Assembly: GCA_022508465.1 (NCBI GenBank)
Contig: JAFLVB010000006.1
Span: forward strand, 1 to 45,048
DNA from: Clostridiales bacterium
Lineage (GTDB): Bacteria; Bacillota; Clostridia; Christensenellales; Pumilibacteraceae
Direction of reading: 5' to 3'
DNA length: 45,048 bases
In this document: positions 210-45,048 of the stretch, piece by piece
Position numbering within the stretch: the first letter of the stretch is position 1
Layout of the letters: every line of letters starts with the position of its first letter
Program-made: the position numbers and the translations under genes
The notes under the pieces: model-generated
Told to the model about the DNA's origin: nothing
The model's input: the letters and a program-made list of their open reading frames with translations, nothing else
The model's database searches: none

Positions 210-380
210 ATGATAGAATTTAAAGATAGAGTAGCTAAAAATAACAAACAAAAATTAAAGATTTATAATAGTAGTGGAGTCTTGCAAGAGACTCAGTCGG
301 TAGAAATAGCACAATAGAAGGCCGAAGAAGGCACGCCATTAAATGCCGCAACATTTAATGAAATGATGGGCGATGTTTAG
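210..380 (+). pseudogene. Decayed copy of the phage-tail-fibre-like gene at 44317
   Basis: From the ATG at 210 the DNA matches the start of the intact gene at 44317, with 9 differences in the first 96 bases by eye. Both copies encode EFKDRV, LKIYNSSGVLQET and the motif GTPLNAATFN. Relative to the intact copy, this one lacks 10 bases and then 5 more bases. Together these restore the frame, but the shifted stretch between them contains a TAG at 315-317. A second in-frame TAG at 378-380 stands where the intact copy has a tyrosine codon, and homology fades after about base 390. The gene is therefore broken. It sits 11 bases after the upstream ORF, the same arrangement as at the right edge. Confidence 0.85.
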
Positions 381-412
381 GACAACGTCAAGATACTATG
401 GGATGACGAAAG

Positions 413-442
413 CAGCTTTCTGACTTAGGAGAGCTGTTTTTT
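413..442 (+). terminator. Rho-independent terminator
   Basis: An 8-bp stem (CAGCTTTC / GAGAGCTG, one G-U pair) with an 8-nt loop is followed by six T. It closes the left accessory edge and separates it from the response-regulator operon. Confidence 0.75.
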
Positions 443-42526: not shown

Positions 42527-42555
42527 AAAGGCACATTCAAACGAATGTGCCTTTT
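42527..42555 (+). terminator. Strong terminator after clpX
   Basis: A perfect 12-bp stem (AAAGGCACATTC / GAATGTGCCTTT) with loop AAAC is followed by T. It ends only a few bases before the Rhs-tip reading frame. The GTG start proposed by the track at 42547 lies inside this stem. Confidence 0.9.
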
Positions 42556-42558
42556 CTA

Positions 42559-43815
42559 ATGGAATTAGGACTATATTACATAAATGGTCGTTGGTATGAT
42601 CCGGAAATCATGCAATATCTGAATGCGGACAGTCCTGAAAACATAATAGCTCTTGCAAATGTGCTTAATTCGCTTGACAGAAATGCAATAACAGTAGCTA
42701 ATATAATTAGCTTTGATATTAATAGCGATACTATATTTACTTCTGGAGAGTATTCTCCTGATCCATATGACGAAAATGCCGATAAAACTTGGTGGCAGTT
42801 ACATTGGAAGAAAGTTGTTCAGTGGGTTGCTTTTGCGATTGCTGTACTTGCAACAATAATAGTAACAATTATAAATCCTGCGGCAGGAGCATCAATGGCA
42901 TTATACTGCCTAAAGGCTTCGATAAGCGGAATTATTATAGGCGGCGTAGTGGGTGCAATAACAAGCATAGCACAAGGCAAAAACATATGGGAAGGAATTC
43001 TGACAGGGGCATGGTATGGATTTATGAACGCTTATACCACTGCTGCAGTAATGTATGGTATAAGTGCTGCTGCTAATGCCATGTCAAGTACTGTAAATAA
43101 AGCAAAACCATGTGATGGTGCATGCTTCATAGCGGGAACTTTGGTATTATGCAAAGATCAAGACGGTAATGAGTGTCATAAGCCTATAGAAGAAATTGAA
43201 GTAGGTGATTATGTATGGGCGTATAACGAAGAAACTGGTGAAAGCGATTGGAAGCCCGTTTTAAGACTGTTCCGTAATGAGACTAAAGAATGGTATCATG
43301 TTTTCGCAGCAGGAGAAGAAATTGTTTGCACACCAAATCATCCATTCTATGTAGTAGACAAAGGTTTTGTTGAAGCAAAAGATCTAAAAATATTTGATAT
43401 TCTATTGCAATCTGATGGAACACATGCTATAATAAAAGACATAGATGTTGAAAAGCTCGAAAAAGCAGAAACAACATATAACTTTGAGGTAGCAGATTTC
43501 CATACTTATTATGTAACTGAAAGTTCTATTTTAGTCCATAATAAATGTCCAGCTGGTTCACCGCTACCTAATGAGGGATTACCCAATTCGACTGCTTTGC
43601 GATATGATGTAGAAGGAAATTTATATACAGCAAAAACCTATGGAGCAGATGGAAGAGTCGTTGCAAGGATAGATTTTCAAGGTAAACCTCATTATGCTGT
43701 GGATGTTGGGAAATCTATTATTCCTCACGTTCACCCAATTGTTTATGATTTAGAAATATATTATAGAGAATTAAATGCAGTTTCATTGCAATATTATATA
43801 GGGAGTTTATTATGA
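42559..43815 (+). CDS. 5'-truncated Rhs tip with Hint domain and C-terminal toxin candidate
   Basis: The frame opens with GLYYINGRWYDPEIMQYLNADSPENI, the closing motif of an Rhs/YD-repeat core, but no YD repeats precede it. A hydrophobic linker (about 88-140) follows. A Hint (intein-like) pretoxin domain then starts at Cys189 with CFIAGTLV and contains PIEEIEVGDYVWAYNEETGE, CTPNHPFYV, YNFEVADFHTYYV and the terminal HN (327-328). The last 90 residues, with GADGRVVARIDFQG and HVHP, are the candidate toxin. ATG 42559 has no ribosome binding site or promoter and abuts the clpX terminator. It is probably a displaced, silent orphan tip. Its stop overlaps the next gene by 4 nt. Confidence 0.8.
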   Translation: MELGLYYINGRWYDPEIMQYLNADSPENIIALANVLNSLDRNAITVANIISFDINSDTIFTSGEYSPDPYDENADKTWWQLHWKKVVQWVAFAIAVLATIIVTIINPAAGASMALYCLKASISGIIIGGVVGAITSIAQGKNIWEGILTGAWYGFMNAYTTAAVMYGISAAANAMSSTVNKAKPCDGACFIAGTLVLCKDQDGNECHKPIEEIEVGDYVWAYNEETGESDWKPVLRLFRNETKEWYHVFAAGEEIVCTPNHPFYVVDKGFVEAKDLKIFDILLQSDGTHAIIKDIDVEKLEKAETTYNFEVADFHTYYVTESSILVHNKCPAGSPLPNEGLPNSTALRYDVEGNLYTAKTYGADGRVVARIDFQGKPHYAVDVGKSIIPHVHPIVYDLEIYYRELNAVSLQYYIGSLL

Positions 43816-44297
43816 GTTTAATTTTAACAGTCAAAATAAATTTTAATGAAAAAGAATGCAATACATTTTTTGAACAAGAAATTTCTGATATTTGTTTTAA
43901 AATAATAGAGGATGCTTGCAAAAAAAAATTGGCTGTTGAAAGGATAATATTTAGAGAATCAGTTCCCTATGACTGGATCATAGAACACGAGCTTCAAAAA
44001 AATGAGATGTTATTAATAATAAGTAATAGCTATATTTTTCGAGAAGTAGAACCGATTCTTATGGATGAATTTTCTGTTTCAAAACCAAATCATTTAAAAC
44101 GATTAAGTATTTTTCAGGACTTCATACACAAAATTTATGATTTTCCAATTGTAGATCGAATTGAAGTTTCAATGTACGATGATGGAAATTATACTTTCGA
44201 AATTGTTAATTGCTCATTAATAAATTTTGCTAATGTTATGAGAAATAAGTTATATCAAAAGTTATCTTTTTCTTATAAATTTAATTTTCAAAAATAA
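43812..44297 (+). CDS. Candidate immunity protein for the adjacent toxin tip
   Basis: This 161-residue soluble protein has no recognised family, signal peptide or membrane segment. It is AT-rich like the tip gene. It begins inside the stop of the Rhs-tip ORF (ATGA) and ends 19 bases before the tail-fibre-like gene. In polymorphic-toxin systems the gene directly after the toxin normally encodes its immunity protein, and position alone supports that role here. The start has GGGAG upstream. Confidence 0.6.
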   Translation: MSLILTVKINFNEKECNTFFEQEISDICFKIIEDACKKKLAVERIIFRESVPYDWIIEHELQKNEMLLIISNSYIFREVEPILMDEFSVSKPNHLKRLSIFQDFIHKIYDFPIVDRIEVSMYDDGNYTFEIVNCSLINFANVMRNKLYQKLSFSYKFNFQK

Positions 44298-44316
44298 TTT
44301 TAAGGAGGTTCAAATA

Positions 44317-44607
44317 ATGCTTGAATTTAAAGATAGAGTTTCTAAAAATAACAAACAAAAACTTAAGATCTATAATAGCAGTGGAGTCTTGCAAGAGACT
44401 AAGTCGGTAGAAGTATTGCGCGATAGCACAATAGAAGATGTAACCGAAGAAGGCACACCATTAAATGCCGCAACATTCAATGCAATGATGGGCGAGGTTT
44501 ACGATACTGTTACACTAAAAACTAGTCCAGACAGTACAAGTAAACGTGTCTCGCTAAATCTCATTGCAGAGGAAGGCAATCTAAGACTTCAATTTACAGA
44601 TAGATAA
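44317..44607 (+). CDS. Small phage-tail-fibre-like protein, intact copy
   Basis: This 96-residue protein has LEFKDRVSKNNKQKLKIYNSSG at the start and EEGTPLNAATFNAMMGEVYD in the middle. The GTPLNAATFN block is a common feature of Firmicutes phage tail-fibre or baseplate proteins. It has no signal peptide or membrane segment. An AAGGAGG ribosome binding site precedes it at good spacing, which suggests it is translated. A broken copy lies at 210-380. It may be part of a tail-like particle or a degraded prophage. Confidence 0.6.
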   Translation: MLEFKDRVSKNNKQKLKIYNSSGVLQETKSVEVLRDSTIEDVTEEGTPLNAATFNAMMGEVYDTVTLKTSPDSTSKRVSLNLIAEEGNLRLQFTDR

Positions 44608-44656
44608 ATTATTTAGTCTAAAAGTTTTCTTACATAGTGCTTAACGCACTAAAAAG

Positions 44657-44688
44657 ACCGAAGTAGTATAAAACTATTTCGGTTTTTT
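44657..44688 (+). terminator. Terminator after the tail-fibre-like gene
   Basis: An 11-bp stem (ACCGAAGTAGT / ACTATTTCGGT, one G-U pair) has a 5-nt loop and is followed by six T. It lies in the 236-base gap between the intact tail-like gene and the partial gene at the right edge. Confidence 0.85.
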
Positions 44689-44783
44689 GTTATGCACTAA
44701 AAGTAATTTGAAAGCTCTCAATTCAATTAAAATTCTCGTTGTTCGTAACATGTTTTAATGAAAACCACTGCCAAAATCCGTCA

Positions 44784-44812
44784 TTGCATTTCACATGCCT
44801 CTTTGTTATTCT
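44784..44812 (+). promoter_or_regulatory. Possible promoter of the right-edge gene
   Basis: TTGCAT (44784-44789), 17 bp and TATTCT (44807-44812) lie 31 bases before the ATG at 44844. The -10 box is weak. Confidence 0.4.
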
Positions 44813-44843
44813 ATGTATATAAAATAAATAAAAAGGAGGAATT

Positions 44844-45048
44844 ATGGCACAATTTAATTTTAAAGATGTAAAAAACATTTACATTAATGGCAATAAGGTT
44901 GATTCTTTTGTTCTAAACGGAGCGAGAGTTTGGCCTGCACCATTGCCACCTGTAGTTGAAAGTTGTAGTTTAAGTAGGAATCTCGACAAATTTTATCTCA
45001 ATTACACAATATCCAATCCTAATGAATATAACGTTACACTATATTACA
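44844..45048 (+). CDS. Partial tail-like protein, runs off the window
   Basis: Translation from ATG 44844, after a very good AAAAGGAGG ribosome binding site, is open to the end of the window (68 codons). The N-terminus has IYINGNKVDSFVLNGARVW, a short NGxKV/LNGxxVW pattern common at the start of phage structural or tail-tip proteins. It continues into a strand-rich part that looks like the start of an Ig- or FN3-type domain. The remainder is outside the window. Confidence 0.6.
   Translation, partial: MAQFNFKDVKNIYINGNKVDSFVLNGARVWPAPLPPVVESCSLSRNLDKFYLNYTISNPNEYNVTLYY

Follow-up and report, generated by a model that had tools for sequence, protein, structure and literature searches.

A displaced Rhs toxin module with a phage tail-fibre-domain gene in a Clostridiales contig, and the recurrence of this pairing in the order

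The window, that is, the whole stretch of DNA analysed here, is one complete contig of 45,048 bases from an assembly of 1.55 Mb that is 93% complete. Near its right end, the genes tig, clpP and clpX are followed by the clpX terminator and then by an open reading frame (42559-43815, 418 amino acids counted from the ATG) that comprises the end of an Rhs core, a Hint domain and a toxin tip. A small gene and a gene carrying a tail-fibre domain complete the module (Table 1). From the letters of this DNA, an earlier note had read the end of an Rhs core, an entire Hint domain, a 90-residue tip, a gene overlapping by 4 nucleotides and a gene with the motif GTPLNAATFN, and the analysis confirmed all of them. 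Absent from that note were the lack of a start signal or shell for the Rhs piece, the terminator at 44652-44688 and, at 210-410, a second fibre-domain gene that has decayed. Rfam and tRNA scans over the window gave no match.

Table 1 Features of the window and of holin-bearing Rhs loci used for comparison
Feature	Position	Strand	Basis
Last 65 aa of a small ORF truncated at the contig start	1-198	+	position resembles that of an immunity gene; no family match
Decayed second fibre-domain copy	210-410	+	two TAG stops, a deletion
Terminator after the decayed copy	408-441		hairpin, z = -3.5
clpX terminator hairpin	42527-42554		12-bp stem, fold z = -4.9
Rhs core end and hydrophobic linker	42559-43176	+	alignment to L056; TIGR03696 2.9e-4 (under the family cut-off); pre-ATG sequence
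Hint (pretoxin-HINT) self-cleavage domain	43177-43542	+	PF07591 2.9e-25
Hint end, conserved seam ahead of the tip	43425-43542	+	matches four L056 copies at 70-79% DNA identity
Toxin tip, Ntox24 family, 90 aa	43543-43812	+	PF15529, 31.7 bits vs curated Pfam cut-off 24
Immunity gene candidate, 161 aa, outside known families	43812-44297	+	overlaps the tip gene by 4 nt
Phage tail-fibre N-terminal domain gene, 96 aa, FKDR...GTPLNAATFN	44317-44607	+	homology to siphophage tail-operon protein
Intrinsic terminator after the fibre-domain gene	44652-44688	+	16-bp stem and T run, z = -5.5
Gene start truncated at the contig end, N-terminus xNGxxVxxxxxNGxxVW	44844-45048	+	own AGGAGG site
Hol44 holin	L061:4248-4556		upstream of Rhs
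Hol44 holin	L076:3064-3357		upstream of Rhs
Hol44 holin	L092:754-1023		upstream of Rhs
Hol44 holin	L093:5647-5943		upstream of Rhs
BhlA holin	L123:2582-2971		upstream of Rhs, 3e-10
Holin_LLH	L052:9725-10141		between fibre gene and Rhs, 4e-6

The Rhs core end of the open reading frame has the sequence GLYYINGRWYDPEIMQYLNADSPE, and its best relative is a full-length Rhs in another genome of the order (L056 in G303; 36% identity over 367 amino acids, 6.6e-56). The Hint domain is complete: the match covers positions 8-136 of the 137 in the PF07591 profile, and the C-terminal end reads ILVHNKC, with the HN in place. The Ntox24 score was obtained from the tip alone. A tip related to that of the window is found on a different Rhs (L072), and a search of solved structures by sequence with the tip as the query gave no match.

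The Rhs piece is an orphan fragment without a shell and without a translation start. The clpX terminator directly precedes it, with no Rhs shell upstream, and its ATG sits 4 bases past the stem of this terminator. Inspection of the preceding sequence found no ribosome-binding site ahead of the ATG, and the alternative GTG start at 42547 falls within the terminator. The piece is probably not translated and the module silent. The same assembly contains two further Rhs loci: contig C40 bears a full-length gene of a different type (L011:135-5984), and contig C42 an Rhs end accompanied by several small genes (L012:3-2773). Neither has a fibre-domain gene. The window piece gave no DNA match to these two loci, and thus a donor for a swap was not found; the main gene is possibly missing from the incomplete assembly. 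A seam for the swapping of tips is visible in L056:791-4873, where the Hint end recurs four times, each ahead of a different tip and with small genes interspersed, in copies that match the Hint end of the window. A separate locus (L053:913-8365) contains six tandem cassettes of an Rhs end and a small gene, most of which open with the same Rhs core end, and then a fibre-domain gene.

The stop codon of the Rhs frame and the start codon of the next gene share the four nucleotides ATGA. The encoded protein has no convincing family match in Pfam, PHROG, NCBIfam or PADLOC, and neither Imm50 nor Imm53 matched it in a Pfam search up to E = 1. Comparison with solved structures by sequence gave a single match at chance level (0.054), and the structure model (pLDDT 33) was discarded as unusable. 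The layout of toxin plus immunity gene put forward in the earlier note fits as the conventional reading, with an Ntox24 tip; on the immunity side, the 43812-44297 gene is a candidate by virtue of its position.

The fibre-domain gene begins 19 bases after the candidate immunity gene and is preceded by an AGGAGG ribosome-binding site. Direct blastp comparison matched its protein to tail-operon proteins in L026 (1e-5) and L024 (2e-5). When the protein was searched by itself against INPHARED phages, plasmids and IMG/VR, no match was obtained, and profiles were therefore required; these gave matches in eight IMG/VR tail operons. The exact string GTPLNAATFN is present in just 3 of 2.9 million IMG/VR contigs, which is too rare for a general literal phage motif, and it must therefore be treated as a domain, here the 60 amino acids around the motif (FxDR...PGR...TExGTPLNAxTFN). 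The usual place of this domain in siphophages is past the genes for the tape measure, distal tail and tail proteins and ahead of those for holin and endolysin. Judged from this homology, the gene is assigned to the N-terminal domains of siphophage tail fibres, and the domain is of phage origin. A role as a defence gene was dropped because PADLOC gave no match to the protein. The domain had no match among solved structures searched by sequence, and its predicted structure, two hairpins with a helix between them at a pLDDT of 53, was too weak for a fold search. No tail genes lie beside the gene in the window or, as judged by lists of open reading frames, beside its counterparts in 10 other Rhs-linked loci.

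The decayed copy at the opposite end of the contig retains 82.6% DNA identity to the intact gene across 207 columns, and it also trails the end of an unrelated small open reading frame and precedes a terminator. The gene start at 44844-45048 is possibly a further fibre-like gene; in a comparison for conservation as part of the module, its only resemblance, a weak one, was to the gene that follows the fibre gene of L030. In that locus (L030:6020-6922), a fibre-like N-terminus of the NGxxVxxxxFNGxxxW type is in frame with triosephosphate isomerase right after the fibre-domain gene. Within L031:1346-2766, on the border of an Rhs module, 11 bases separate the end of another fibre-domain gene from the GAPDH gene that comes next.

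The homologs of the 44317 protein were tabulated by their linkage to Rhs, as the earlier note had proposed. Early queries, in which the window protein was used alone or paired with one relative and searched across the family and the order, matched in G060, G257, G277 (two loci), G230 and G190, with a marginal match in G296 (E 0.007). These matches adjoin Rhs, except for that in G230, where the contig end cuts the locus, and that in G296. The order is Rhs, one or more small genes and the fibre gene in L027, L028, L029 and L031, and the fibre gene followed by Rhs in L005. A profile of eight sequences, the seeds of which were partly Rhs-linked and hence a source of bias, was run on 396 genomes of the order and found 17 places, corresponding to 16 loci in 14 genomes. 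Eleven of the 16 loci are Rhs-linked, that is, within a few genes of Rhs or Rhs-CT (the window, G020, G190, G257, G268, G273, G277 twice, G303, G307 and G391), and the fraction among the loci outside the seed set is 6/9. The non-linked loci are ordinary phage tail operons in G332 and G103, a locus with no Rhs in view in G245, and two loci cut by contig ends (G230 and the left copy in the window). Of 15 loci in viral contigs or in genomes beyond the order, none is Rhs-linked (Fisher 6.8e-5 against 11/16 in the order). Among 391 genomes sampled from the class, six places were found outside the order, five in prophage tail operons and the sixth in an unclear context, none near Rhs.

Rhs cores were matched in 90 of these 396 order genomes, 183 times in total, and no more than 0.5% of the sequence is as close as 10 kb to such a core, an upper bound on the chance expectation per locus. 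Set against 11 of 16 observed, this excludes chance; related genomes are non-independent draws, but six or more family groups are represented among the linked loci. The enrichment of the fibre domain beside Rhs in the order is thus confirmed as genuine and repeated, and it involves both sides of Rhs. For the window, it could still be argued that a prophage remnant and an Rhs orphan share a variable spot after clpX by accident, given that the site is a contig end by an orphan fragment, that variable spots gather both kinds of debris, and that the second fibre-domain copy has decayed. We consider this improbable, as both copies in the genome trail a small open reading frame in the immunity position and 10 loci elsewhere have the same neighbour, at approximately 0.5% expected by chance per locus.

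The compact cassette proposed in the earlier note was therefore not refuted by the tabulation, and its enrichment beside Rhs and immunity genes stood; its fixed composition did not. The fibre gene can lie on either side of Rhs, and it is upstream in L005, L052, L056 and L057. Most Rhs loci of the order are without the domain, which is present in 14 genomes against 90 with an Rhs core, and among the matches listed for 20 background Rhs loci it was absent at the threshold used. The upstream positions also bear on the proposal that the 44317 gene controls the toxin, as a second immunity protein or a chaperone for the tip. Its place directly past the candidate immunity gene, in a unit closed by a terminator, would suit such a role, but the domain belongs to phage fibre proteins and adjoins Rhs genes with quite different tips, and we regard this proposal as very improbable. 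A tree of the domain, which is short and weakly supported, requires five changes between Rhs-linked and phage versions against a mean of 9.0 in shuffles. The Rhs-linked versions are interspersed among phage versions and do not form one clade, indicating that the pairing arose, or broke, more than once.

Phage context is evident at other Rhs loci. Two IMG/VR contigs (L098:492-11250 and L095:1-11176) have the order tail fibre, endolysin, in part a further fibre, an Rhs of approximately 2000 amino acids and a small gene; we propose this as the ancestral layout, with Rhs as phage cargo. Hol44-type holins lie directly upstream of Rhs in four loci (1e-12 to 8e-14), and BhlA and Holin_LLH holins occur in two others (Table 1). 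The locus with BhlA is a phage-like scaffold of faecal origin, and its Rhs end and Hint align with those of the window along the full length. Holin-Rhs pairs occur in both bacterial and viral contigs, and the holins may be a release route for Rhs. No holin was found near 42559-45048 among the window open reading frames up to the contig end at 45048. Two Ruminococcus phages (L124 and L125, Ca. Heliusvirales) carry repeated Hint-type toxin genes near WXG-like and FtsK/SpoIIIE genes, which suggests a type VII route for these toxins.

The earlier note had also suggested that the third gene links the tip to a tail-like delivery particle. The analysis did not support this suggestion. Neither a tail sheath (PF04984) nor an HK97-type capsid matched in the genome of the window, a 93% complete assembly, which makes a contractile particle of its own or a complete HK97-type prophage unlikely. 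The fibre N-terminus is free-standing, and the Rhs orphan is probably untranslated. An intact prophage with both the GTPLN gene and Rhs was not found.

We propose, as a reading somewhat better than even in our judgement, that the window holds a displaced rhs-CT/immunity module with a co-travelling phage fibre segment, and that Rhs is prophage cargo released by holin or lysis. Prophages of this Clostridia order would have transported Rhs genes at their tail-fibre/lysis end, and prophage decay or module movement would leave the neighbouring fibre gene attached to the Rhs module. The scattered Rhs-linked versions on the domain tree, with their five changes, fit a repeated landing of Rhs beside phage fibre genes. 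An intact Rhs of the window type, which starts at the shell and has no obvious signal sequence, would be released by the adjacent phage lysis genes, either through a holin or by lysis of the whole cell. Self-cleavage by Hint would subsequently liberate the tip, against which the immunity protein would shield kin. What remains in the window would be a store of tip and immunity gene, usable once recombination through the Rhs/Hint seam joins them to a full Rhs.

Counter to the cargo reading, the window and L027, L028, L029, L031 and L053 have an intact fibre gene without an obvious tail or lysis neighbour. In the one genus that contains L027, L028, L029 and L031, the fibre genes beside Rhs stay open at approximately 40% identity, which argues for function over a relic and keeps alive the rival in which the fibre-domain protein is a dedicated Rhs partner. 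As an adaptor or a receptor-binding subunit, it would join the shell to a phage tail, that of an own prophage or of a tail-like particle, and thereby aim the toxin. The association, which is strong, recurs in six or more families of the order and occurs on either side of Rhs, is also consistent with an adaptor, as are the intact open reading frames with their own ribosome-binding sites, kept without other phage genes, and the fibre genes with collagen-like or coiled-coil shafts that directly adjoin Rhs (L028, L027 and L005). However, sheath and HK97 capsid are absent from the genome of the window, the gene order is variable, most Rhs loci of the order do without the domain, and one of the two copies in the window is decayed. 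A dedicated partner is a minority reading that we find rather unlikely. A broader version, in which this class of Clostridia Rhs is a phage-derived weapon with a captured fibre that aims or docks the shell, a captured holin that releases it and tips that swap through the Hint seam, would make the 44317 protein the aiming or docking part; we consider it unlikely.

To the question of how Rhs toxins with no obvious signal sequence exit Gram-positive-type cells, the recurring fibre and holin neighbourhood offers a testable answer, namely phage cargo with release by holin or lysis, and also a means of spotting such loci in gut genomes. The cargo reading would widen the range of phage-carried polymorphic toxins past the MuF proteins. 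In the literature searched, which did not extend to subscription papers and preprints, there was no account of Clostridia Rhs paired with tail-fibre or holin genes.

Among known systems, the orphan rhs-CT/rhsI modules of Salmonella lack start signals and become active only after recombination with the main rhs (Koskiniemi 2014, PMC3967940). The window shares with such modules (PMC3967940; Zhang 2012, PMC3482391) a displaced Rhs end, a tip, a following gene, the lack of a start and a conserved seam. It differs in that the module stands alone after clpX and not downstream of a main rhs, has no long near-identical stretch to any Rhs read from its genome, and is trailed by a phage fibre gene; L056 and some Hint-bearing loci do have the tandem orphan layout. 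Ntox24 (PF15529) is carried by Rhs, HINT and MuF proteins with Imm50 or Imm53 as partners (PMC3482391). The tip of the window likewise lies behind a Hint on an Rhs end and scores over the family cut-off, whereas its partner gene matches neither Imm50, Imm53 nor any other Pfam family.

MuF polymorphic toxins occur in temperate phages of Firmicutes, are abundant in the gut and are fused to a packaging-module protein (Jamet 2017, PMC5576092). A polymorphic toxin with its immunity gene on temperate phages of Firmicutes would be common to both systems, but the Rhs considered here is encoded separately, at the tail-fibre/lysis end, with no fusion to a packaging protein. Large signal-less toxins of Clostridia leave the cell in a holin-dependent manner (TcdE and related proteins, T10SS; PMC3369941, PMC9527704). 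A large signal-less toxin beside a phage-type holin in Clostridia resembles this release, although the proposed cargo is an Rhs interbacterial toxin, no holin was found in the window and release is inferred from other loci. The fibre gene has the same 60-amino-acid domain, including the GTPLNAATFN motif, as siphophage fibre N-termini (phrog_9010; MADYFVDRV...GTPFNAATFN in L024/L078), but in the window it is a free-standing gene of 96 amino acids with no tail operon or capsid genes. The module in the window is best placed as a variant of the orphan Rhs polymorphic toxin module, and its tail-fibre neighbour is probably a mark of carriage by a prophage.
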